Assembly: GCF_037031225.1 (NCBI RefSeq)
Contig: NZ_JAYEZN010000001.1
Coordinates: 2,914,001-2,978,000 of the forward strand
From: Halorientalis sp. LT38
GTDB lineage: Archaea; Halobacteriota; Halobacteria; Halobacteriales; Haloarculaceae
DNA: 64,000 nucleotides
Direction of reading: 5' to 3'
Part shown: piece after piece, positions 24,007 to 35,535 of the stretch
Layout: each line of letters starts with the position of its first letter
Position numbering within the stretch: the stretch's first letter is position 1
Program-made: the position numbers and the translations under genes
The notes under the pieces: generated by a model
The model's database searches: none
Seen by the model: the letters and a program-made list of their open reading frames with translations, nothing else
Told to the model about the DNA's origin: nothing

Positions 24007-24396
24007 ATGGGGGGCAGGGAGGGGTTCTGGGAGCCATTCGCGTCGGTCGCCCAGGCCGGCGTGCTCACGTTCGCGCTGACTGTCTACGTCGCCGTCGAGC
24101 TATGGAGGGGCCTGCTCCCCGGCGGCTCCGTACTCGCAGTCCTGCTCGCGCTCGTCGTCGGCGTCGGCGGTGGCGTCGGCTTCGCCTTCGTCGGCGTCTC
24201 CCGGCTGTCTGCCGATCCCCTCGACGAATACGTCTTCCTCGTCACCGTCGTCGCGATCGGCCTGGTCGCCGCGAAGATCGTCTCCCCCGTCGGCGTCCCG
24301 GCCGGCGTAACGGTCGGCGTCCTCGCTTTCCTCTGGACCGGCGTGGGCGCGAAACTGTACTTCGAGGGTGACGATCACGAACCCATACCAACCTAG
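24007..24396 (+). CDS. four-helix membrane protein, unknown function
   Basis: The 129-residue protein has about four hydrophobic segments (VLTFALTVYVAVELW, VLAVLLALVVGVGGGVGFAF, VFLVTVVAIGLVAAKIV and GVTVGVLAFLWTGVGAKLYF). I know no family for it. The gene runs into hairpin island A, which separates it from the convergent malic enzyme gene. Confidence 0.7.
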   Translation: MGGREGFWEPFASVAQAGVLTFALTVYVAVELWRGLLPGGSVLAVLLALVVGVGGGVGFAFVGVSRLSADPLDEYVFLVTVVAIGLVAAKIVSPVGVPAGVTVGVLAFLWTGVGAKLYFEGDDHEPIPT

Positions 24397-24456
24397 TACG
24401 CGCGATACTCGGTAGCGAAGATAGAACGGGGATTCAGACACCCATATCCAACATCC

Positions 24457-24657
24457 GCGGCGCGAAGCGCCGCAGTCTCCGTCAGAGCTTTGCTCTGACG
24501 AGCACCCACTCGTTCCCGCTGGTCACTCGCGGGTATCCCGGAACTCGCGCAGAGCGCGAGTTCCGCTTTTTCGCCACCGAAAGACTCGCTTCGCTCGTCT
24601 TTCGAGCACCCGCTCACTGCGTTCGCGGGAACCACGTTTTTCGAGAAGTGGTGGCGA
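24457..24657. repeat. hairpin island A
   Basis: A tight series of perfect hairpins: GCGGCGC/GCGCCGC with loop GAA (24457-24473), GTCAGAGC/GCTCTGAC with loop TTT (24481-24499), GGAACTCGCG/CGCGAGTTCC with a 5-base loop (24540-24564), and CGAAAGAC/GTCTTTCG around TCGCTTCGCTC (24578-24604). A 41-base block (24566-24606) recurs with one mismatch at 34109-34149 in island B. A second shared block (GTTCGCGGGAACCACGTTTT, 24621-24640) follows in the same order in both. The island lies between convergent genes and carries T-runs in both directions. Confidence 0.8.
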
Positions 24658-24677
24658 GCACCGCGAGCCACCCGAGG

Positions 24678-24689
24678 AGAAAAAGGTGG
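24678..24689 (-). terminator. T-tract terminator after malic enzyme
   Basis: Immediately after the malic enzyme stop codon the transcript reads CCACC followed by a run of five T. An almost identical CCACCTTTTT follows the stop of the gene at 34330, so this is a shared 3' boundary motif of islands A and B. Oligo-T runs are the usual archaeal termination signal. Confidence 0.5.
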
Positions 24690-26948
24690 TCAGTAGTCGT
24701 TCTGCTGGGCGTCGACGACCGCCACGCTCGCCAGGTTGACGATGTCTTTGACCTCGTCGCCCCGCTGGAGGACGTGGACGGGTTTGTCCATGCCGACGAG
24801 CATCGGGCCGATGGCCTCGGCGCCGCCGAGGCGCTGGAGGAGTTTGTAGCCGATGTTGCCCGCTTCGAGGTTCGGGAACACCAGGATGTTCGCCGGTTCC
24901 TCGAGGTCCGAGAACTCGTAGGTGCCGTTGAGGATGTCCTCGACGACGGCGGTGTCGGCCTGCATCTCACCGTCGACCGGGAAGTCGACCTCTGGGTCGG
25001 CCCGGAGCAACTCCGCGGCCTCGCGGGGCTTGCGCGTGCCCTCGTTGTCGACCGAGCCGAAGTTCGAGTACGACAGCATCGCCGCGCGCGGTTCCACGTT
25101 GAACCGGCGGGCCAGGTCGGCGGTGTGGCAGGTCACCTCCGAGAGCACCTCCGCGTCGGGGTTCTGGTTGACCGTCGTGTCCACGCAGAAGATCACGCGG
25201 TTCTTGAAAGTCAGCATGTACACCCCGGCGGCGTAGTTGGCGTCGTCGGCGGTGCCGACGATCTGGAGCGGCGGCTTGAGCGCCGAGGGGTAGTTGTGCA
25301 TCAGCCCCGTCAGCATGGCGTCGGCGTCGCCCATCTCGACCATGACGCTGCCGAGGAAGTTGCCGTCCTGGACGAGTTCGCCGGCCTCCCGTCGGGTGAT
25401 GCCCTTGCGCTGGCGGAGTTCGTACAGCCGCTCTGCGTACGGTTCGAGGCTCCCCTCGCCGGGGTCGACGATCTCGGGGTCGAAGTCCAGGGCCAGGGTC
25501 TCCATGATCGCCCAGATGCGCTCGCGGTCGCCGATCAGGATGGGTTCGGCGATGCCCTGGTCGACCAGCTGGTAGGCCGCCCGGATCATCTTCTCGTCGT
25601 CGCCCTCGGCCAGCACGACCCGCTTGGGCTCGTTTTTGGCCTTGTTCAGGACGACCCGCATCATCTCCCGCGATTTGCCCAGGCGGGCTTCGAGCTGTTC
25701 GACGTACTCGTCGTGGTCGATGTCGAAGCGCGCCGCGCCGCTGTCCATCGCGGCCTGGGCGACCGCCGGTGCCACCTCGAAGAGCACGCGTGGGTCGAGC
25801 GGCTTCGGGATGACGTACTCGGGCCCGTACTGGAGCGGCTGGTCGCCGTAGGCCTTGACGACCGCGTCGGGCACGTCCTGGCGGGCCAGGTCGGCCAGCG
25901 CCTCGGCGGCCGCGCGCTTCATCTCCTCGTTGATCTCGGTCGCCCGCACGTCGAGCGCCCCGCGGAAGATGAAGGGGAAGCCGAGCACGTTGTTCACCTG
26001 GTTGGGGTAATCGGAGCGGCCCGTGGCCATGATGACGGTGTCGTCGCGGGCCGCCTTGGCGTCCTCGTAGGCGATCTCCGGGTCCGGGTTCGCCATCGCG
26101 AAGATGATCGGGTCCGAGGCCATCGCCTGCACCATCTCCTCGGAGACGATGCCGCCGACCGAGAGGCCGACGAACACGTCCGCGCCGTCCATCGCGTCCG
26201 CGAGGTCGCCCTCGGGCACGTCGCGTGCGAACTCGCGTTTGAACTCGTTGACGTCGCCCGACTCCGCGCGGGCCTGGGTGATGATCCCCGAGGAGTCACA
26301 CATCGTGATGTTCTCGCGTTTCGCGCCGAGCGAGACGTAGAAGCGCGCGGAGGCGATGGCGCTCGCGCCGGCGCCGGAGAAGACGATGTCCAGTTCCGCC
26401 AGTTCCTTGCCGGCGATGTCGGCGGCGTTGAGCAGGGCGGCCCCGGAGATGATCGCGGTGCCGTGCTGGTCGTCGTGGAAGATGGGGATGTCCATCTCCT
26501 CGCGGAGGCGCTCCTCGACCTCGAAGCACTCGGGGGCCTTGATGTCCTCAAGATTGATGCCGCCGAAGGTCGGCTCCATCGAGGCGATCGAGCGGATCAT
26601 CTGGTCGGTGTCGTCCTCCTCGAGTTCGATGTCGAAGACGTCGATGTCGGCGAAGCGCTTGAAGAGGACCCCCTTGCCCTCCATGACCGGTTTCGAGGCC
26701 TGTGCGCCGATGTCGCCGAGGCCGAGCACGGCTGTCCCGTCGGAGACGACGCCGACGAGGTTCCCCTTCGCGGTGTAGGTGAACGCGTCGTTGGGCGCGT
26801 CGCGGATCTCACGGCAGGGAGCGGCGACGCCCGGCGAGTAGGCCAGGCTCAGGTCCCGCTGCGTGTTCGTCGGCTTCGTCGTGGAGATCTCGATCTTCCC
26901 GGGTGGATCCTCCCGGTGATAGTCGAGCGAATCCTCGTCTAGTCCCAT
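24690..26948 (-). CDS. maeB: NADP-dependent malic enzyme with phosphotransacetylase-like domain
   Basis: The 752-residue fusion has an N-terminal malic enzyme ([71 protein letters not shown]) and a C-terminal phosphate acetyltransferase-like domain from about residue 430 ([40 protein letters not shown]). It decarboxylates malate to pyruvate with NADP reduction. The C-terminal domain is usually regulatory in this family and not catalytic. A TATA-like CCTTTTTACC on the minus strand lies about 27 bases before the ATG, so it is leaderless. Confidence 0.95.
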
Positions 26949-27093
26949 GCCTCTAGGGGGTTCAGGCCAGGGTAAAAAGGTAACCGAAAATCGTGTTCGA
27001 CGTTCGTCGATACCCGTCTGTACCGTCGGGGTCGTTCTCGCATCGCGGGAACGAAAGGCGGAGCATAAGTATGCGCGAACCCGACCCTCGGCT

Positions 27094-27600
27094 ATGCGAC
27101 TGGGATTTCGCCACCTCGCCGCGACGACGACGGCGATGACGTTCGCCCTGATCTTGCTGGGCGTCTACACGGGCGCTATCGGCGCGGGACTGTCCTGCGG
27201 AGCGCGCTGGCCGCTCTGTAACGGGAGCGTCTTCGGCCTCTTCCCGGCCGACTGGCCCAGCTTCGTCGAGTGGTTCCACCGCCTCGTGGCGATGATCACC
27301 GGCTTCATGATCATCGGCACCGCCTACGCCGCCTGGAAACGCCAGGAGAGCGACGCCGTCCGGCGCGCGTCCATCGTCGCGCTGGCGGTCCTCCCCGTGC
27401 AGGTCATGCTGGGCGCGAACACGATCTGGGGCTACGGGCCGCTCGCACAGGTGCTCCACCACTCCGCGGCGCTGCTCATCTTCGCCTCGCTGACCGCCGC
27501 GACCGCCTGGTCGTTCCAGCACGCCGCCGCGGCAGCCGCCGAGACCCCCTCGGACGCCGAACAGAGCGCCGAGAACACCTCCGGCCCGGTCCGGCTCTGA
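27094..27600 (+). CDS. ctaA: CtaA-type heme A synthase, short archaeal form
   Basis: The 168-residue, four-helix protein is about half the length of bacterial CtaA/COX15 and matches the short archaeal form, which probably dimerises. It shows GVYTGAIGAGLSCGARWPLC, with the cysteine pair of the extracellular loop, and heme-ligand histidines in EWFHRLVAMITGFMIIG and LAQVLHHSAALLIFASLTA. It converts heme O to heme A for terminal oxidases. The ATG at 27094 was chosen over upstream starts because CATAAGTATG lies about 27 bases before it (leaderless). Confidence 0.88.
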   Translation: MRLGFRHLAATTTAMTFALILLGVYTGAIGAGLSCGARWPLCNGSVFGLFPADWPSFVEWFHRLVAMITGFMIIGTAYAAWKRQESDAVRRASIVALAVLPVQVMLGANTIWGYGPLAQVLHHSAALLIFASLTAATAWSFQHAAAAAAETPSDAEQSAENTSGPVRL

Positions 27601-27601
27601 C

Positions 27602-29116
27602 TCAGACGAAGTCGCCCAGCCCCGACTGCTGATCGTTCGCGTCCGCGTCCTCGCCCTCGGTCGCCGATGCAGGGGGCTCCTCCTCGTCGTCTGCTGCGCT
27701 CCCGGCGAGCGTCGCCTGCCCCGCCCCGTCCGCGTCGTCCGATTCGGTACCGCCGGCGCTTTCCTCGGTGCCGGACTCGGTCGCGTTCGTCTCGGCCGCC
27801 TGGCCGGCCCGACCGCCCTCGAAGGCCCCGCCCGAGTGCTCGACGGCGGACTCAGCCTGGAGTCGTTCGGCGTCCTCGACGATGTCCTGGACCTTGTTCG
27901 TGTCCTTGCCGGAGCCGGTGACGAAGGAGACGTGTTCGGCGTCGAGGTCGTAGCGGGCCGTCATCGCGACCGTCAGCTCACGGTTCTTGCAGTGGTGGGT
28001 CATGACCGCGAGGTGGGGCATGATCTCCCGGCGTGCCGTGGCCATGCTGACGCCCTGCTCCTCGGCGATCTGTCGGGCGACGTAGTCGCGTTTCTCACGC
28101 GTGCCGCGCGAGCGCCCGAGCTTCGACCAGTAGCTCGGCGGGCCATAGCGGGTCCAGCCGCCCTTCTCGCCGCCCCTGGCAGCGGCGACGCCGGCGGTCA
28201 TGTTGTCGCCCGCGTACCGCCAGTACGAGTAGTTCTGCGTCGCGCGGACGCGCCCGAGCCAGCGGTCGGCGTTCCCGAGGAAGTCGTAGGCCCGGGCCAG
28301 TTCTCGCCCCTCGTAGTCTTTGGGCATGTTGTCCTCGATCCAGTTGATGAGGTCGTCGGGCGTCTCGTCGACGTCGTAGGACGCCTTCAGCGCCTCCTCG
28401 GCGCCGGCCTTCTTGATGACCGTGTCGAGGTAGTCGAAGACGCCGCTGGTGCGGTCGCGCTCGCCGGTGACGACGTCCTCGGCGCGGAGTTCGGTCCGGC
28501 CCTGGGCCATCGCCTGCAGATCGTTGATCGCCCCGCGGAGGTCGCCGCTGTTGGACTCGGCGATGGCCGACAGCGCCTCGTCCTCGAACTCGATGCCCTC
28601 CTGGCGACAGACGTCCCGGAGGACGGGGACGATCGAGCGCGCGGAGATGTCGCGGAACTCGATCTCCCGGCAGGCGTTCCGCAGCGTGTTCGACATCTCG
28701 TAGAAGTCGTTGGCGATCAGGACCATCGGCTGGCCGGCCTCCTTGACGATGCCGGTCACTGCCTTCGAGCCCCCGCGGTCGACGTTGCCGTGGAAGTTGT
28801 CGGCCTCGTCGACGACGATGAGCTGTTTGCCGGTCCCGCCCAGCGTCGCGTTCTTGGCGGCGCGGCCGGCCAGCCGCTCAATGTCGTCTTTGGTCCGCGA
28901 GTCACTGGCGTTGAGTTCGACGGTCTCCCAGCCCATGTCCGCCGCCAGCGCGTGGGCCGCCGAGGTCTTGCCGATGCCGGGGCTGCCGTGGAGGATGGCC
29001 GCTTCTCGGTGCTCGTCCCACGTCTCGCCCCACTCCCGGAGGGCGTCGCGGGCCTTGTCGTTGCCCCGGACCTCCGCCAGCGTCGACGGGCGGTACTTTT
29101 CGGTCCAGTCGCTCAT
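27602..29116 (-). CDS. rfcL: replication factor C large subunit
   Basis: The 504-residue AAA+ clamp loader subunit opens with WTEKYRPSTLAEVRGNDKAR. It has Walker A HGSPGIGKTSAAHALAADMG (about 42-61), Walker B LIVVDEADNFHGNVDRGG (about 100) and the sensor region PMVLIANDFYEMSNTLRNAC. The RfcL-specific C-terminal domain (YWSKLGRSRGTREKRDYVA) is followed by a long acidic tail ending QQSGLGDFV, a PIP-box-like PCNA-binding motif. With the small subunit it loads PCNA onto primed DNA. There is no intein. A CATAAGC TATA box on the minus strand lies 27 bases upstream. Confidence 0.95.
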   Translation of the reverse strand: MSDWTEKYRPSTLAEVRGNDKARDALREWGETWDEHREAAILHGSPGIGKTSAAHALAADMGWETVELNASDSRTKDDIERLAGRAAKNATLGGTGKQLIVVDEADNFHGNVDRGGSKAVTGIVKEAGQPMVLIANDFYEMSNTLRNACREIEFRDISARSIVPVLRDVCRQEGIEFEDEALSAIAESNSGDLRGAINDLQAMAQGRTELRAEDVVTGERDRTSGVFDYLDTVIKKAGAEEALKASYDVDETPDDLINWIEDNMPKDYEGRELARAYDFLGNADRWLGRVRATQNYSYWRYAGDNMTAGVAAARGGEKGGWTRYGPPSYWSKLGRSRGTREKRDYVARQIAEEQGVSMATARREIMPHLAVMTHHCKNRELTVAMTARYDLDAEHVSFVTGSGKDTNKVQDIVEDAERLQAESAVEHSGGAFEGGRAGQAAETNATESGTEESAGGTESDDADGAGQATLAGSAADDEEEPPASATEGEDADANDQQSGLGDFV

Positions 29117-29217
29117 TGCGAGTGGGGACGGACGGCCCGCGCTTATGGGTTGCGGAGCCCGGGTTCCGGGGGGTCCGACGGCAGCGCTACCGGCACGGCA
29201 TCCCCGACGCCTCCCGA

Positions 29218-29257
29218 ATTAATAATGGGGTCTGCGAACCAAGCAACTATTAATAAT
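29218..29257 (+). promoter_or_regulatory. paired ATTAATAAT sites upstream of the zinc importer
   Basis: ATTAATAAT occurs at 29218-29226 and again at 29249-29257. The 31-base separation is about three helical turns. More AT-rich sequence (GATAATAACTTATTTAC, about 29270-29286) then provides a TATA element about 27 bases before the znuA ATG. The arrangement fits cooperative binding of a metal-responsive repressor; the regulator is not in the window. Confidence 0.5.
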
Positions 29258-29309
29258 ATCGGGGGTAGAGATAATAACTTATTTACTCGGCTGCCGTCTG
29301 CTCCCGGAT

Positions 29310-30356
29310 ATGAAGCGCACGCGACGATCCATTCTGACGGCGAGCGCGGCGGGGCTCGGTGCGGCGACGGCCGGCTGTCTCGGCGGGTTCTCCGGCGAGG
29401 GATCGACCAGCGACGGCGCACAGACCTCCTTCCACCTGCTGTACGACTTCGCGCAATCGGTCGCGGGCGAGGACGTCCCCGTCGAGAGCATCGTCCCCTT
29501 CGGCCAGCACGGGCACGGGTGGGAGCCCTCGGGACAGGTCCAGCGGGACGTCTACACCGCCGCACTCTTCGTCTACATGGGCGAGGGGTTCCAGCCGTGG
29601 GCCGACGACGTCGTCCGGAACATGCGCGACGACGACGCCGACGTAGTCGTCACCGACGCCTGGGACGGCGTGGACTTCCTCGACGTCGACGGCCACGGCG
29701 CCGGAGAACACGAGCACGACGAGGAGCACGATGCCGGGGAACACGGGACCGAAGCGCACGAGGGTAGCGACCACGCCGACCACGAGGGGGGCGACGACGG
29801 ACACGACCACGACCCAGGAAATCGCGACCCGCACTTCTGGCTGGACCCACTTCGCGCCAGGACGGCCGTCGAGAACGTCCGCGACGGCCTGATCGAGGCG
29901 TACCCGGACGGCGAATCCGGGTTCCGTGACCGCGCCGACGCGTACCTGGCCGAGCTGGAGGCCCTCGACGACCGCTTCGCGGAGACCCTCGACGACCGAT
30001 CGCGGGACGCGGTGCTCGTGGCCGGACACAACTCCTTCCAGTACCTCGGCGCGCGCTACGGGTTCGAGATCCACGCGCTCCGCGGGCTCTCGCCGGACGA
30101 ACGTCCGAGCGCGCGAACCGTCTCCCGGGCCCAGGTGTTCGTCGCCGAACACGACGTCGAGTACGTGCTCGCACCAGCCCTCGAGTCGTCGCGGGCGGCA
30201 GAGCAACTCGTCGCGGAGACCGACGCGAGCGAGGTCCTCGAGATCACCGCCATCGCGGGCCTCACCGAGGAGTGGGAGGAGCGCGACTGGGGCTACGTCG
30301 ACCTCATGGAGCGGGTGAACCTGCCCGCGCTCGAGCGCGCCCTGGGGGCCGAATGA
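29310..30356 (+). CDS. znuA: zinc ABC transporter substrate-binding lipoprotein
   Basis: The 348-residue protein begins with a twin-arginine lipoprotein signal (KRTRRSILTASAAGLGAA then TAGC, the lipid-anchored cysteine). It belongs to the cluster-A metal-binding family: GQHGHGWEPSG supplies a ligand histidine, DPHFWLDPL the next, and VLVAGHNSFQYLGARYGFE the third. A His/Asp/Glu-rich loop (residues about 130-172, with many HDHEH-like repeats) is characteristic of zinc-specific members. It hands Zn(II) to the ZnuB/ZnuC pair, whose genes overlap or abut it downstream. Manganese or another divalent metal cannot be ruled out. Confidence 0.92.
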   Translation: MKRTRRSILTASAAGLGAATAGCLGGFSGEGSTSDGAQTSFHLLYDFAQSVAGEDVPVESIVPFGQHGHGWEPSGQVQRDVYTAALFVYMGEGFQPWADDVVRNMRDDDADVVVTDAWDGVDFLDVDGHGAGEHEHDEEHDAGEHGTEAHEGSDHADHEGGDDGHDHDPGNRDPHFWLDPLRARTAVENVRDGLIEAYPDGESGFRDRADAYLAELEALDDRFAETLDDRSRDAVLVAGHNSFQYLGARYGFEIHALRGLSPDERPSARTVSRAQVFVAEHDVEYVLAPALESSRAAEQLVAETDASEVLEITAIAGLTEEWEERDWGYVDLMERVNLPALERALGAE

Positions 30357-31093
30357 GCGTCGCGGCCGTCGAGCACCTCCGGTTCGGCTACACCGACGTC
30401 GACGTACTGCGGGACGTCTCGCTGTCCGTCGAGGCCGGGGAGTTCCTCGGACTGGTCGGGCCCAACGGCTCGGGGAAGAGCACGCTCCTGAAGGTACTGC
30501 TCGGGCTCCTGGAGCCCGACGCCGGGGACGCGCGGCTGTTCGGCGAGCCGGCCCACGCCTTCGCCGACGGGCATCGCATCGGGTACGTCGGGCAGCGGAC
30601 GGCGACCGCAGACCGAGGGATCCCGGTGACCGTCGAGGAGGTCGTCACGACGGGACGATACCCCCACGTCGGCTACGGCCGGCTGCGCGCCGAGGACCGC
30701 GCGGCAGTCCGCGAGGCGATGGCGACGACGGGGATCACCGACCTCGCCGATCGTCGGCTCTCGGCGCTCTCCGGGGGCCAGCGCCAGCGGACGTTCATCG
30801 CCCGCGCGCTCGCCTGCGAGGCGGACTTGCTCGCGCTCGACGAACCGGCCGTCGGCGTCGACGTCGAGTCCCGCGACGCCTTCTACGAGCTTCTGGGCTC
30901 GCTCCACGCCGACGGGCTGACGATCCTGCTCGTCGAACACGACATCGGCGTCGTCACCGAGTACGCCTCCAGTATCGCCTGCATCAACCGGCGGCTCCAC
31001 TACCACGGCGATCCCGGCGCGTTCGCCGACAGCGGCGCGCTGGCCGACGCCTACGGGACGACCCAGCGCATCGTGGAGCACGATCACTCGTGA
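30353..31093 (+). CDS. znuC: zinc ABC transporter ATP-binding protein
   Basis: The 246-residue ABC ATPase has Walker A GLVGPNGSGKSTLLK, Q-loop GYVGQRTATADRGIP, signature LSGGQRQRTFIARALA, Walker B LLALDEPAVGVD and the switch histidine in ILLVEHDIGVV. It starts within the stop codon of znuA (ATGA overlap) and ends overlapping the permease start, so the three genes form one translationally coupled operon. It energises import of zinc delivered by ZnuA. Confidence 0.94.
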   Translation: MSVAAVEHLRFGYTDVDVLRDVSLSVEAGEFLGLVGPNGSGKSTLLKVLLGLLEPDAGDARLFGEPAHAFADGHRIGYVGQRTATADRGIPVTVEEVVTTGRYPHVGYGRLRAEDRAAVREAMATTGITDLADRRLSALSGGQRQRTFIARALACEADLLALDEPAVGVDVESRDAFYELLGSLHADGLTILLVEHDIGVVTEYASSIACINRRLHYHGDPGAFADSGALADAYGTTQRIVEHDHS

Positions 31094-31953
31094 CGGGCGC
31101 CGTTGCCCTCCAGGCCGTCCCCGTCGTCGACGTGTTCGCCGAGATGCTCGGCTTCGAGTTCATGCGACGGGCCTTCCTGGCCGCGATGCTCGTGGCGGTC
31201 ATGGCGCCGGTCGTGGGATCCTTTCTCCTCTACCGGCGGATGGCGTTCATCGGGGACACGCTCGCCCACGTCGCCTTCGCCGGCGTCGCCGCCGGCCTGT
31301 TCGCCGAGGCGGTCCTCGGCGTCGGTGGGTCCCCCTTCCTCGTCGCGCTGGTCGTCGCGGCGCTCGCGGCGGTCCTGATCCAGGCCATGGCCGACTACAC
31401 TGACGTGGACAACGACGTCTCGATGGCCATCGTCCTCTCCGGCGGGTTCGCGGTGGGGACGGTGCTGGTCAGCCTCGGCGGCGGCGTCGCCGTCGGCATC
31501 GACCAGTACATCTTCGGGAGCGTCACCACCGTCGGCTGGTCCCACGTGTACGTGATGGCCGGGCTGAGTGCGCTGGTCGTCGGCGTCGTCGCGCTCACCT
31601 ACAAGCCGCTGCTGTACGTGACCGTCGACGAGGAGGCCGCCCGCGCCGCACGCCTGCGCGTGGACTTCCACAACCACCTGCTCGTCGTCCTCGCCGCGCT
31701 GGTCGTCGTCGCTGCCATGCAGGTCATGGGGGTGATCCTCGTCGCGGCGATGCTCGTCGTCCCCGTCGCCGCCGCCGGCCAGGTCGCGCCGAGTTTCGGC
31801 GCGTCGATTTTCCTCGCCGTCGCCGTCGCGGAACTGGCCGCCGTCACGGGCGTGACGCTGTCGTACACCCACGACGTGGCGGCCTCGGGCGCCATCGTGC
31901 TGGTCGCCATCGCCCTCTACGTGGCTGCCGCCGTCGTCGCCCGCCGTCGGTAA
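31090..31953 (+). CDS. znuB: zinc ABC transporter permease
   Basis: The 287-residue permease has about eight hydrophobic segments and belongs to the ABC-3 metal transporter family (MLGFEFMRRAFLAAMLVAVM, SFLLYRRMAFIGDTLAHVAF, DYTDVDNDVSMAIVLSGGFA). The GTG at 31090 overlaps the znuC stop. An internal ATG at 31144 (MLGFEF) would be an alternative start that keeps all membrane segments. It is the last gene of the zinc operon. Confidence 0.93.
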   Translation: MTGAVALQAVPVVDVFAEMLGFEFMRRAFLAAMLVAVMAPVVGSFLLYRRMAFIGDTLAHVAFAGVAAGLFAEAVLGVGGSPFLVALVVAALAAVLIQAMADYTDVDNDVSMAIVLSGGFAVGTVLVSLGGGVAVGIDQYIFGSVTTVGWSHVYVMAGLSALVVGVVALTYKPLLYVTVDEEAARAARLRVDFHNHLLVVLAALVVVAAMQVMGVILVAAMLVVPVAAAGQVAPSFGASIFLAVAVAELAAVTGVTLSYTHDVAASGAIVLVAIALYVAAAVVARRR

Positions 31954-32000
31954 CCGCCGGCCACAAGGGTTTTTCCTCCGCCTCTCTTCTCTGTAAACTG

Positions 32001-32573
32001 ATGAGTACACAACGACTGCAGTCGCTGCCGCTGACGACTGGGGCTATCGCTGGTGCGGGCGCGTACGTCCTCGGCTACGTCTTCACGTATCTGCTGGTCG
32101 GGAGTGACGTTCGCGAATCCGCCGCGAATCAGGTCGCCCAGGCGTTCGGGGGACAGGATCTGACGTATCAGGCGGTCGGGTGGGTGTTCTACAACGCCCA
32201 CTTCGTCTCGACGGTCGTCGACGTGGACGTGCCGTTCATCGGTGGCTCCAGTACGGTGAACTTCATCGCGGAGGTCGACGCCTTCTCTGCGATCCTGTAT
32301 CTGGTCCCGGTCCTCCTGCTGTTCGGTGCGGGCCTGGCCATCGGCCGCCGGACGGCGGGTGAGCAGGACTACGGTGACGCGGCCGCGGCCGGCGCGACCG
32401 TCGTCGTCGGCTACCTGCCGCTGGCCGTGATCGGTGCCTTCCTGGTCCAGGTCCAGTCCGGCGGTTCCTCGGCGGGACCGGACCTGCTCCTCGGGGCCGT
32501 CCTCGCGGGCCTGGTCTACCCTGCCGTCCTCGGTGCGCTGGGAAGTGTCGTCGCCTTCGCGACTCAGTCCTGA
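32001..32573 (+). CDS. haloarchaeal membrane protein, unknown function
   Basis: The 190-residue protein has about four membrane segments (TGAIAGAGAYVLGYVFTYLL, FSAILYLVPVLLLFGAGLAI, AGATVVVGYLPLAVIGAFLV and LLLGAVLAGLVYPAVLGALG) and an external loop between the first two. I recognise the general form from haloarchaea but no function. A TATA-like GTTTTTCC lies about 30 bases upstream. Its 3' end overlaps that of the convergent next gene by 10 bases. Confidence 0.8.
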   Translation: MSTQRLQSLPLTTGAIAGAGAYVLGYVFTYLLVGSDVRESAANQVAQAFGGQDLTYQAVGWVFYNAHFVSTVVDVDVPFIGGSSTVNFIAEVDAFSAILYLVPVLLLFGAGLAIGRRTAGEQDYGDAAAAGATVVVGYLPLAVIGAFLVQVQSGGSSAGPDLLLGAVLAGLVYPAVLGALGSVVAFATQS

Positions 32574-33193
32574 CGAACCCGCGCCCAGAGGACGACCGGA
32601 CTCGCGAGCACGAGCAGTAACTGCCAGCCAGACTGTGCGACCGGGAAGATCCGGTCGACGCCCTCCGGCTCGGCGCCGCGGTTCGGATCGACGCCGCTGT
32701 TGACGTGATAGTCCGCGGTGGTTCCCAGTTTTTTGGGCCCCGCCTCTGGCCCGCCGACCTCGACGAACGTCTGGACGAGCCCTCGCTGGGACGAGAGCTC
32801 GAGGGTCCCCTCGATCCGGTAGAACTGGTCGTGCAGGGGGTACAACGGGTTCGCGCCCCAGGTCGTGAACAGGTCGAGCCCCACGGCCGCGAAGACGAAC
32901 GCGGCGAGGGCGGTCCAGGCGACCGTCGGGGCCGACTCGCCGAACCGCGCCGTGAGCCACCGGTCCTCGCGTCGGGCGTCGGCGTAGATCGCCGCGCCGG
33001 CGATCGCGGGCAGCAGGAGGGTGTGGAAGGCCGCGCGGTGGGCGCCCCCGACCAGGAAGCCGAGGAAGACGTCCAGGTCGGCGAAGATCACGACGGCGAA
33101 CACGACCGCGAGGCTCCGGGGAGAGAAAGCCTCGCCCAGCAACGCGGCCGCGAGGATGCCCGCAAAGGCCAGGTGCACCACCGTCGATGGCAT
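32564..33193 (-). CDS. YdjM/LexA-bound type membrane metal-dependent hydrolase
   Basis: The 209-residue membrane protein starts MPSTVVHLAFAGILAAALLG, with an N-terminal histidine, and has ADLDVFLGFLVGGAHRAAFHT with further His/Asp residues facing a membrane interface. This His-Asp pattern and topology fit the predicted inner-membrane hydrolase family typified by YdjM. The natural substrate is unknown. The start at MPSTVV was preferred because it gives the family N-terminus; the frame stays open upstream. Confidence 0.82.
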   Translation of the reverse strand: MPSTVVHLAFAGILAAALLGEAFSPRSLAVVFAVVIFADLDVFLGFLVGGAHRAAFHTLLLPAIAGAAIYADARREDRWLTARFGESAPTVAWTALAAFVFAAVGLDLFTTWGANPLYPLHDQFYRIEGTLELSSQRGLVQTFVEVGGPEAGPKKLGTTADYHVNSGVDPNRGAEPEGVDRIFPVAQSGWQLLLVLASPVVLWARVRQD

Positions 33194-33308
33194 GGCAGGG
33201 GCCTGGACGCGGGGGTGCAAATCCCTTCCGGTGGCTCTGCCCGTGACGGCCGCGCCGCCGACCGCCGGTGTCGGTACGTTTTTGCCCTGGAGCGCGTCCA
33301 CTGTCCCC

Positions 33309-34016
33309 ATGGGCCGCGAACCGCGGCGGGAACTGGCCGAGAAGATCGCCGGTGAGATCACGCTGAGTGACGATCCCGGCGCCACGCTGCGGAAGTGGCG
33401 GACGGACTTCGACGTCTCCCAGACGGAACTGGCCGACCACCTCGAGGTCTCCTCCTCCGTCATCTCGGACTACGAGAGCGGCCGCCGCCAGAGTCCGGGC
33501 ATCGGCGTCGTCGACCGCATCGTCGGCGCGCTGCTCGAGATCGACGAGTCCCGCGGCGGCGGGCGCATCCGCCAGCACGCGCGCGTGCTATCCGCGGGGT
33601 TCGACAGCGAGATCGTCCACGACCTCCGGGAGTACCCCGCGACGATCCCGATGGACCGCTACTACGACGCCATCGGCGCGACGGAACTGGTCGAGGGAGC
33701 ACAGGCAACGGTCGCCGGCCATACGGTCATCGACAGCATCCAGGCGATCACCCGTCTCTCGAGCGAGGAGTTCTACCGGCTCTACGGCCAGTCCACCAAC
33801 CGGGCGCTGGTGTTCACGAACGTCACGCGCGGCGAGTCGCCGCTGGTCGCCATGCGCGTCGTCACCCCGACGCCGAACGCCATCGTCCTCCACGGACTTG
33901 ACGAGGAGAGCCTCTGGGATCACGCGCCGCGGCTGGCGCAGATCGACGGCTTCTCGCTCGCGGTGACGACGACGGATCTGCCGACGATGCTGGAAGGATT
34001 GGACGAGTTGCCCTGA
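33309..34016 (+). CDS. XRE-type HTH transcriptional regulator
   Basis: The 235-residue protein has an N-terminal helix-turn-helix (about 28-80: LRKWRTDFDVSQTELADHLE, VSSSVISDYESGRRQSPGIG) and a larger C-terminal ligand-like domain (about 110-235) containing TRLSSEEFYRLYGQSTNRAL and SPLVAMRVVTPTPNAIVLHG. This architecture is conserved across archaea. The C-terminal domain probably senses a small molecule; target genes are unknown. The gene is followed by hairpin island B. Confidence 0.87.
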   Translation: MGREPRRELAEKIAGEITLSDDPGATLRKWRTDFDVSQTELADHLEVSSSVISDYESGRRQSPGIGVVDRIVGALLEIDESRGGGRIRQHARVLSAGFDSEIVHDLREYPATIPMDRYYDAIGATELVEGAQATVAGHTVIDSIQAITRLSSEEFYRLYGQSTNRALVFTNVTRGESPLVAMRVVTPTPNAIVLHGLDEESLWDHAPRLAQIDGFSLAVTTTDLPTMLEGLDELP

Positions 34017-34060
34017 TGGTTCGACGGAAGTGGTATACCGAAATTGCGGTGGGGGAGCAT

Positions 34061-34318
34061 CCGGCGCGCGAAGCGCGCCGGTTCACTGGCCGAGCGAAGC
34101 GAGGCAGCCTTTTTCGCCACCGAAAGACTCGCTACGCTCGTCTTTCGAGTGCTCAAGAGAACTCCGTTCTCTTGGCATGCCAAAAATCTTCGATTTTTGA
34201 GCACTCCCGCTCACTGCGTCGCCGGACTACGTCCGGCTTCCAGAGGGACCTCCGGTCCCTCCCAGTTCGCGGGAACCACGTTTTTGGCCGGGGGGTTCGC
34301 GGGTCGAACCCCCCGGCC
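34061..34318. repeat. hairpin island B
   Basis: At least six perfect hairpins: CCGGCGCGC/GCGCGCCGG with loop GAA (34061-34081), CGAAAGAC/GTCTTTCG (34121-34147), AAGAGAAC/GTTCTCTT with loop TCC, CAAAAATC/GATTTTTG with loop TTC (34181-34199), GCCGGAC/GTCCGGC with loop TAC, GAGGGACC/GGTCCCTC with loop TCC, and a 14-bp GC-rich stem (34286-34299 with 34305-34318). It shares a 41-base block and the block GTTCGCGGGAACCACGTTTT with island A in the same order, but carries extra hairpins between them. Confidence 0.8.
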
Positions 34319-34329
34319 AAAAAGGTGGG
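34319..34329 (-). terminator. T-tract after metalloprotease gene
   Basis: Directly after the stop codon the minus-strand transcript reads CCCACC and five T, then enters the 14-bp stem of island B. The near-identical CCACCTTTTT after malic enzyme suggests a common 3' boundary sequence. Confidence 0.45.
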
Positions 34330-35535
34330 TTAGCAGAGATTTTGCTGGTAGTACCCGGAGCCGGCGAACCCGTCGTCGAGTTCCGCGGCGGTCGCGTCGG
34401 AGAGGAACTCGTCGTCAGCGCCGACGGACGGTGAGAGCCAGCCCGCGTCGGTGTGCGTGCCGCCGTCGACCTCGCCCACGACGTTGTGCAGGAGTTCGTG
34501 CGTGATGACCTGGACCCGGAACGGGACCGAGCCGTCGGTAGCCCGCCGCTGGTCGTCGATGACGCTTCCGAAGCCGGGGGCGCTGCCGAACCCGGGGCGG
34601 TCACCGCCGTCGATCTCGCCGACCACGACCTGGTGGTACACGCAGCGTCGCGGCCCGAGGTTCTCGGCCGTGTAGTACTGGTGGATCTCCGCGCCGTCGG
34701 TCCCAGAGATAACGACTTCGCTCCCGACGGGGCCGCCGTAGCCGTCCCGTCCGTCGTCGTCGATGTGGAGCGCGATCCCGGTCGAGCCGTCCGGGTTCTC
34801 GACGGGCATCTCCGCCCAGACCGATTTCAGCGCCCGTTTCTCGCGATCGTTCAGCGGATGGGTGTAGTAGCCGTAATTCAACTGGACGTAGAGATCCATG
34901 CGATCGGGATCGGCGTTCGGGAGCGCAGCCCCATCCGCCGTCCGGCCGCGCTCCTCCCACTCGTCTGGCAGCCGGTCCCCGTCAGCGTCCGGCCCTGGGC
35001 GGTCGTAGGCGCGTTCGTCGGCGGCGGCGCCGTCGCCGGTGGTGGCTGCGTCATCGTGGAGTACCCCCTCCTCCGCGTTCTCCAGTGCGTCGTCCGGACC
35101 GCTGTCGGTGGTGAAGTCCCCCGCGTTGCTGACGGCGCTGTTCTCCCCGAGGTCGCCGATCACGTACGGGAGCGACCAGACCGAGCCGATGAGAAAGAGG
35201 ACTGTCAGCGCGAAGGCAAAGCCCGCCTTCCCGATCGGCGTGTTCGGCGTCACGAACCGGTAGAGGCGTTTGGTCCGCGGCCCCGCCCGGTGGAGCGCGG
35301 CGTAGCCGACCCGCGCGAAGACGACGGCGACGAACACCGTGAGGACCATCGTCCCCAGGAACACCGACAGGATGAATGCCGGTTCGGGGAGCGACTCGCT
35401 GGCCCAGCGGATTCCGTCGACGACCGCCCCCGCCGCCGGCGCGAGCAGTCGCCCGACCCTGGTGGGGAAGGCTGCGAGGGCGACGACGAGTCCGACGACC
35501 GCACCGACGACCGCACTCTCCGCTGGGTGTGCCAT
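34330..35535 (-). CDS. membrane-anchored zinc metalloprotease candidate
   Basis: The 401-residue protein has three N-terminal membrane segments (about 8-35, 53-78 and 104-125), an acidic linker, a calcium-binding-type loop DADGDRLPDEWEERG (about 183-197), and a soluble domain containing QVITHELLHNVVGEVDGG (about 340-357) followed by a histidine in THTDAGW. The HExxH motif with a further glycine and histidine resembles metzincin-like zinc proteases, though the spacing is not the standard HExxHxxGxxH. The domain would face the outside. The start ATG is followed immediately by the first hydrophobic segment. Confidence 0.7.
   Translation of the reverse strand: MAHPAESAVVGAVVGLVVALAAFPTRVGRLLAPAAGAVVDGIRWASESLPEPAFILSVFLGTMVLTVFVAVVFARVGYAALHRAGPRTKRLYRFVTPNTPIGKAGFAFALTVLFLIGSVWSLPYVIGDLGENSAVSNAGDFTTDSGPDDALENAEEGVLHDDAATTGDGAAADERAYDRPGPDADGDRLPDEWEERGRTADGAALPNADPDRMDLYVQLNYGYYTHPLNDREKRALKSVWAEMPVENPDGSTGIALHIDDDGRDGYGGPVGSEVVISGTDGAEIHQYYTAENLGPRRCVYHQVVVGEIDGGDRPGFGSAPGFGSVIDDQRRATDGSVPFRVQVITHELLHNVVGEVDGGTHTDAGWLSPSVGADDEFLSDATAAELDDGFAGSGYYQQNLC

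Follow-up and report, generated by a model that had tools for sequence, protein, structure and literature searches.

The SMR-A repeats of Haloquadratum walsbyi are haloarchaeal elements of about 110 bp with prominent terminal inverted repeats and no transposase gene, and their mobilisation is left unexplained in the available part of their description (PMC3119063). According to the same text, their insertion duplicates no target sequence and favours palindromes that belong to other mobile elements. Palindrome-associated transposable elements (PATEs) and IS605-type derivatives are also short and haloarchaeal, with palindromes near their ends; as far as that text goes, PATEs have no terminal inverted repeats and resemble IS605-type ends (PMC3119063). 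Elements resembling both are present in Halorientalis sp. LT38, whose 3.58 Mb genome is assembled in 2 contigs. We analysed a window of 64,000 nucleotides (positions 2914001-2978000 of the first contig; island and gene coordinates below are counted within it), where an earlier note had pointed out two hairpin islands between genes, an observation that we confirm. With limits corrected by comparison with other copies, these are island A (24450-24689) and island B (34056-34328). We conclude that A and B are members of a dispersed haloarchaeal family of short non-coding intergenic elements, here called E3 elements. The earlier note knew of no named element with this structure, and our searches of the open-licence literature, judged by titles and the starts of abstracts, likewise found no published account of an E3-type element.

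Searches of the LT38 genome with the gapped pattern CCACNTTTTTN{10,40}AAAAANGTGG, in relaxed form, returned 13 places against 0 in the reversed control, and the single end CCACSTTTTTB gave 27+24 hits against 3+3 in its control. Because these counts far exceed those of the controls, the blocks shared by A and B are beyond chance. BLAST with island A produced matches in 8/8 genomes of the genus (at least 8-32 in each, and at least 27 in LT38), many of which correspond to its last 58 bases, CCACGTTTTT...AAAAAGGTGG, the unit that we call E3. Across the class, the pattern CCACGTTTTTN{15,45}AAAAAGGTGG was found in at least 70 of 391 genomes, at least 57 of 85 in the same family and at least 13 of 306 outside it, and the reversed control gave zero among the matches listed for class genomes. 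The 41-base block common to both islands also exists in relatives: a 31-base part of it (one position free) is exact in Haloarcula mannanilytica (two places), H. salina, H. vallismortis and Halomicroarcula sp. SYNS111. The LT38 genome, searched with 40 bases, one position free and up to 3 mismatches, has only the two copies in A and B. Among the loci collected there were 30 distinct sequences of the 41-base-block variant, three of them from LT38. A local duplication between A and B is ruled out by the BLAST matches in the genus, the 31-base matches elsewhere and the class-wide pattern. A phage or plasmid origin was also rejected, since phages gave no match to the element and plasmids only two weak partial ones.

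The copies compared below are 134 distinct sequences from 121 loci, supplied by BLAST, by the patterns and by stretches of the LT38 genome. They are not a random sample: places matching the class-wide pattern were sampled in part, and orthologues among the copies are not independent of one another. Gene calls came from a purpose-written script. Across copies and genomes, a constant frame carries exchangeable hairpins, in agreement with the earlier view of a modular, dispersed repeat. The position between convergent genes, correctly described for both A and B, does not extend to the family as a rule. The 33 end-motif clusters in the LT38 stretches divide into 9 convergent, 17 tandem, 6 divergent and 1 unresolved, and 57/134 collected copies lie in a convergent setting; both counts discard convergence as the defining context. 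As a whole, the interpretation given in the earlier note is thus partly supported. At locus L102 of LT38 (about 2615-2784), a long C run lies beside a degenerate copy and may be a slipped tract or an assembly fault.

Read from the CCACG side, the full form of the element is (T)AGCAYCC - hairpin 1 - GGTTC(AC) - hairpin 2 - CTTTTTCGC - CCACGTTTTT - hairpin 3 - AAAAAGGTGG. Hairpins 1 and 2 are optional modules, variable or missing among copies, and the variant represented by A and B has extra hairpins inserted between TTTTTCGCCACC and CCACGTTTTT. The conserved unit is E3 itself, 51-70 nt long, whose two ends form terminal inverted repeats with one G-G mismatch; these end sequences were set by the search pattern and are uninformative on conservation. 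Compared with shuffled sequences, E3 folds strongly in island A (-27.0 kcal/mol, z -4.9) and in island B (-46.3 kcal/mol, z -8.5), and hairpin 2 gave z -4.9 in A and +0.3 in B. Stems were analysed in 33 units of 54 nt, out of 144 distinct E3 sequences. Compensatory swaps were observed in inner and outer stems at columns 13-42, 14-41, 15-40, 24-32 and 25-31; columns 13-42, for example, hold CG in 12 units and GC in 20, and columns 24-32 hold GC in 14, CG in 11 and AT in 6. Also conserved are a tandem G.A/A.G step (32/33 and 30/33), a G-G mismatch between columns 11 and 44 (26/33) and an unpaired base at column 19. Because the G.A step is present on one strand only, the folded strand of E3 is probably the one read from CCACG.

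The earlier account of the genomic context missed two features, the duplication of gene ends and the abutment of the right end on functional sequence. In 73/134 copies the left-hand sequence restarts 0-12 nt after GGTGG, compared with 7/662 mismatched pairs, a control that may itself include orthologous locus pairs. The left gene lies on the plus strand in 67 of these 73 copies. The aligned repeat ends between -7 and +3 nt from the stop codon in 35/67, and most of the others run further, often into hairpin 2. Loci L062, L068, L134, L173 and L188 show a different arrangement: the left-hand gene lies on the minus strand, its beginning is what has been duplicated, and the element sits between that gene and its native upstream region. 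Where the junction starts 3-7 nt after GGTGG, its first three bases are gene sequence shifted by one base in 19/36 (for example, ACTC for CACT).

The second copy of the gene end keeps the stop at the same place in 53/62 tails and has no earlier in-frame stop in 58/62. Changed interior codons were counted in these 62 tails (the 67 plus-strand cases less 5 in which gene call and duplication did not fit, with the first two and last two codons omitted). Of 172 such codons, 121 are synonymous and 51 nonsynonymous, a nonsynonymous share of 0.30; changes placed at random would give 0.77, and freedom from constraint in the second copy alone would give 0.63. We conclude that the second tail copy has evolved like coding DNA. 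The tails fall into 27 families by rough string clustering. When eight host proteins were compared with Pfam, seven were recognised: Spt5, a UbiE-type methyltransferase, ornithine carbamoyltransferase, citrate synthase, a histidine biosynthesis protein, gyrase A and an electron-transfer flavoprotein alpha. The eighth had no Pfam hit at 1e-10, and we take it to be DHH-type; NuoI, GatB and similar host gene names are likewise our assumed labels.

Tail and element can form tandem arrays, as at L019, L057, L138, L141, L165 and L176. An element-like core lies behind the tail copy in 11/67 cases, and none was found within 130 nt in 56/67. The two tails of one genome are often closer to each other than upstream tails are between genomes, as in the sets VPE (4.0 vs 10.0), TTQG (6.8 vs 16.1), LAEQ (2.8 vs 11.2) and FEFRL (2.7 vs 10.3); TFVPL and DSEER lean likewise, IMGL (13.5 vs 9.0) and YGQ (2.0 vs 0.0) run in the opposite direction, and YLDSKG is uninformative.

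No tail duplication was detected in 61 copies, of which 59 had both neighbours called and several are orthologous. There, the right end of the element is pinned to its neighbour. Where the right-hand gene is on the minus strand, only 0-4 nt separate the element from its stop codon in 21/25 convergent and 10/16 tandem minus cases; where that gene is on the plus strand, the right end falls 38-44 nt before its start codon in 11/15 tandem plus cases and 1/3 divergent ones. In total 43/59 right ends are pinned, where even placement in the free spacer predicts 3.2. At L097 (2529-2662; one of the 59) the right end meets a tRNA-Arg gene at its 3' end and runs 3 nt into the predicted gene, and in the second copy of L093 (6567-6695; outside the 59) it abuts the 3' end of a tRNA-Ala with a gap of 1 nt. 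At island B, pinning follows from the overlap of the neighbouring genes in relatives. Had the right flank been eroded until essential sequence was reached, intermediate states would be expected; these are few, and erosion is a doubtful cause of the pinning.

Related genomes differ in whether they carry the element. At the DHH-type gene, 8/30 orthologues have a tail copy: genomes G089, G058 and G062 contain both element and tail copy, their congeners G090 and G023 contain neither, and the downstream sequence of G090 and G023 resembles the flank behind the tail copy in G089, G062 and G058. Among 30 orthologues of the malic enzyme gene beside island A, the right end of the element meets the stop codon in LT38 and in two congeners, whose end motifs are imperfect; in the congener G005 the element is reversed and accompanied by a copy of the malic-enzyme tail, and G001 is element-free. 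At the island B locus (8 congeners searched, six junctions read), the convergent stops overlap in G005 and G001 (gap -4 and -9), the gap is 25 in G002, and 313 bp separate the stops in LT38. Each of these differences may reflect either gain or loss.

Two loci from one genus, L224 (G317) and L226 (G232), differ in that one has the element plus a malic-enzyme tail copy and the other lacks it; both keep a hairpin-1-like sequence past the stop codon, perhaps a scar left when an element was lost. Synonymous change is greater in the tail than in the body of the DHH-type gene (L231-L260), and to a smaller degree of malic enzyme (L201-L230), whether or not an element is present. Faster synonymous change of the tail was rejected as a mark of element-driven recombination, given that for the DHH-type gene element-free pairs show it too (0.52 against 0.19 in the body, 33 pairs).

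In Haloferax volcanii the intergenic termination motif is a T stretch plus TC at 748/807 sites, and hairpins lie upstream of 503 termination sites, as given in the available part of that study (PMC7237163). E3 carries a run of five T (T5) on both strands; the next base is C in many copies and G in others. A scan of 24390-24700 for bacterial-type terminators returned one site, island A hairpin 2 with its T5, against a mean of 0.2 in shuffles. The two-way transcription stop suggested in the earlier note agrees with these T-tract, stop-like signals on both strands. By placing TTTTTC-like tracts on both strands, E3 and hairpin 2 would provide a two-way stop for the adjoining gene, and two-way termination is likely for the gene whose stop codon the element touches.

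How could such a module reach so many gene ends? We tentatively favour, as a possible and by no means assured explanation, a two-way T-tract terminator module spread by host recombination, without a transposase of its own. A strand would copy the gene, its stop codon and the element, then leave its template at the constant point GGTGG|, where the E3 hairpin has its right base, and resume on an element-free copy of the same gene at an internal point x. The product would read gene - stop - element - gene-tail copy - native flank. We propose a template switch because the constant right end, the restart in the same gene and the coding-like tail all fit it. The polyploidy and mating of haloarchaea would let both templates meet in one cell; interspecies haloarchaeal recombination and polyploidy are described in the available parts of PMC4500145 and PMC10085750. 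The coding tail copy could then act as a conserved homology arm, so that the finished arrangement moves between species with its junction unchanged. Exchange with element-free alleles would keep the tail copy coding-like, and unequal exchange between tails would generate tandem arrays.

No Y1 transposase was found in the LT38 genome (Y1_Tnp 0), and Y1_Tnp is present in 56/86 family genomes; the reverse transcriptase domain PF00078 is also absent from LT38 and was found in 1/86. Mobilisation of the Y1/IS200 type was therefore rejected for LT38, and could operate in the 56/86 family genomes with Y1_Tnp.

Expressed as the distance between the element's right end and a fixed residue of the gene, the restart point can be compared across genera (g1 to g9). 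The DHH-type gene restarts at 15 nt in five genomes of g3 and likewise in G149 of g6, at 23 nt in two genomes of g5, and elsewhere in the g7 copy. The NuoI-type gene restarts at 8 nt in g1 and g3 and at 15 nt in a second g1 genome, and malic enzyme at 4 nt in g1 and g3, 8 in g4 and 9 in g9. Larger differences were observed for the ArgF-type (29 and 8 nt) and UbiE-type (12 and 29 nt) genes. Many of these arrangements are thus either ancient and held in common, or handed from one genus to another, or directed by sequence. That each genus acquired its own insertions separately at one and the same gene end is mostly withdrawn as an explanation, given that in three genes the restarts of different genera are identical or no more than about 10 nt apart.

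Several points weigh against spread by template switching. Restarts that are identical or within about 10 nt across genera, for the DHH-type, NuoI-type and malic enzyme genes, count against free switching to any point x. A single old event per gene followed by later losses would also explain them, and the likeness of tails within a genome, clear in 4/9 sets, would fit homogenisation after one old event equally well. Both the strand switch at the hairpin base and termination itself are steps that we infer from sequence. No donor allele was found when both tails of the DHH-type gene were compared with element-free relatives; the two tails were equally distant from these, which also leaves a foreign donor for the upstream tail without support. 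Pinning is accounted for only where the neighbours abutted beforehand, as at B. Finally, the searches covered only two transposition-related domains, so that a trans-acting enzyme may be involved. On account of the coincident restarts, we lowered the weight given to recombination and raised that given to an old module held by selection, which is discussed below.

A trans-acting enzyme is the core of the alternative that survives best, although we consider it rather unlikely. A small mobile repeat would be moved in trans by a transposase or a site-specific recombinase, generating long target duplications whose start depends on sequence, and selection would retain only insertions that leave the upstream gene whole. 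The exact and constant right end, the terminal inverted repeats and the presence or absence of the element in relatives are what one would expect of such a repeat, as is a restart point that is nearly the same per gene in different genera. However, duplications of about 24-138 nt in one class of copies and none detected in the other are a poor fit to a single staggered cut, and LT38 lacks a Y1 transposase, although neighbouring genes were not surveyed for transposases.

A narrower form of the recombination model is, in our view, unlikely to be right. It holds that E3 elements are transposase-free selfish repeats that spread between species purely by host recombination, carrying the copy of the coding end as a portable homology arm. 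The arm would serve the side where intergenic DNA is too divergent to pair, and the host gene would stay intact and gain a terminator. Such travel between species would be the reason for identical junctions in different genera.

The module may instead be an old terminator and insulator held by selection, a scenario that we regard as the other main rival, though an unlikely one. Its tails would come from an ancient tandem duplication of gene tail plus terminator, homogenised by unequal exchange and precisely lost in some lineages. T tracts on both strands suit this history, and so do right ends at stop codons or 38-44 nt before start codons, arrays of tail plus element, similar restarts across genera, tails that are often more alike within a genome and the element-like core behind the tail copy in 11/67. 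Yet the E3 frame is common to unrelated genes, so that some spread is needed in any case, 56/67 tail copies have no element-like core within 130 nt, and such close direct repeats should be lost quickly.

The constant ends, the bulged variable hairpin and the location at stop codons also recall a structure-dependent site for site-specific recombination resembling integron attC. This architecture and the strand asymmetry, with the G.A step on one strand only, speak for it. We nevertheless judge it very improbable: inspection of the ends revealed no attC core (integrases were not searched), no cassette exchange was seen, and copies are dispersed. Least credible of all is retro-insertion, in which reverse transcription of an mRNA tail switches template to E3 RNA, since PF00078, found in 1/86 family genomes and not in LT38, makes reverse transcription unlikely, even though a constant right end joined to an internal gene point resembles a template switch and the one-base shift is common at the junction (19/36).

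Islands A and B illustrate the variation in structure. They and their blocks were found where the earlier note had placed them, and the inter-block hairpins of A are unlike those of B, as it had stated. On the plus strand, island A begins at 24450..24473 with a degenerate AACATCC and hairpin 1 (24457-24473; GC-rich, 7-bp stem, GAA loop), where the canonical left end of other copies is AGCATCC-hairpin-GGTTC. It continues with an extra hairpin, GTCAGAGC-TTT-GCTCTGAC (24481..24499), a like module of which occurs in L032, L095 and L116. Next come hairpin 2 and T5 (24567-24571), a plus-strand terminator-like module (24539..24575), and the 41-base variant block (24566..24606), made of T5-CGCCACC and a hairpin at 24579-24603. 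The E3 unit of A (24632..24689) consists of CCACGTTTTT, a structured hairpin and AAAAAGGTGG, and its right end abuts the malic enzyme stop codon.

Island B, also read on the plus strand, begins at 34056..34081 with AGCATCC and hairpin 1 (34061-34081; GC-rich, 9-bp stem, GAA loop). Its hairpin 2 region with the following T5 (34110-34114) spans 34091..34114 and folds no better than shuffles. The 41-base variant block (34109..34149) differs from that of A by one base, leaving exact runs of 25 and 15. Extra hairpins fill the stretch from the variant block to E3 (34150..34275), and the E3 unit (34276..34328) is a near-perfect hairpin that ends 1 nt from the stop codon of a minus-strand gene. The shared block GTTCGCGGGAACCACGTTTTT extends over 21 bases, starting at 24621 in A and 34265 in B, and the minus-strand CCACCTTTTT reaches the stop codon of the minus-strand gene in A (0 nt) and lies 1 nt away from it in B.

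To the left of A lies a plus-strand gene for a protein of 129 aa with no Pfam family (24007..24396), and to its right, on the minus strand, the gene for a malic enzyme of 752 aa with a phosphate acetyl/butyryl transferase domain (24690..26948). Island B is flanked by a plus-strand gene for a helix-turn-helix (HTH)-domain protein of 235 aa (33309..34016) and by a minus-strand gene for a protein of 401 aa with no Pfam family (34330..35535), which we presume to be metalloprotease-like from its HELLH motif. Rfam at gathering scores gave no match in the islands and two tRNAs elsewhere in the window.

If the proposed reading is correct, haloarchaea harbour a small element that takes its place at the ends of housekeeping genes, among them Spt5, citrate synthase and gyrase A, and leaves these genes intact. 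It often has a duplicated gene end at its side and provides a signal for transcription to stop. It would offer a transposase-free route for remodelling terminators, intergenic spacers and gene ends and for exchanging them between species. The positions at which right ends abut their neighbours may, in addition, show where promoters and stop codons start.

E3 elements differ from MITEs (miniature inverted-repeat transposable elements), SMR-A, PATEs and the repetitive extragenic palindromic (REP)/RAYT system in at least one tested feature each, and belong to none of them. The nearest published parallels among those found are the transposase-free Haloquadratum repeats (MITE, PATE and SMR; PMC3119063) and the C-terminal duplications produced by mobile reading frames in fungal mitochondria (PMC3630166). 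They have the terminal inverted repeats of MITEs, but the short target duplication of constant length is replaced by long duplications of varied lengths in 73/134 copies and by none detected in the rest. As dispersed intergenic palindromes they are comparable to REPs and their mosaic forms (bacterial interspersed mosaic elements, BIMEs) and to mycobacterial interspersed repetitive units (MIRUs), as generally known in bacteria. MIRUs are located at stop codons. Unlike these, E3 elements are associated with gene-tail duplication, and LT38 has no RAYT-type (Y1) protein. Unlike SMR-A, they lie at gene ends, about half of the sampled copies between duplicated gene ends; SMR-A repeats make no target duplication, whereas 73/134 E3 copies are flanked by one, and instead of inserting into PATE/IS605 palindromes, E3 copies sit at gene ends and promoter edges (IS605 elements were not annotated). 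PATEs, for their part, differ in that E3 elements have terminal inverted repeats and LT38 has no Y1 transposase. In fungal mitochondria, mobile open reading frames (ORFs) also come to lie between the functional end of a gene and a further copy of its C-terminus left downstream; as far as the available text describes them, these ORFs encode a homing endonuclease and bring a foreign C-terminus (PMC3630166), whereas E3 elements are non-coding and their tails fall into the 27 rough families. The T-tract terminators of Haloferax volcanii, as presented in the accessible part of PMC7237163, are a likeness in function: in many copies E3 has the same T stretch plus TC after a gene, accompanied by hairpins, but unlike those terminators it carries the tract on both strands within one fixed, dispersed element.

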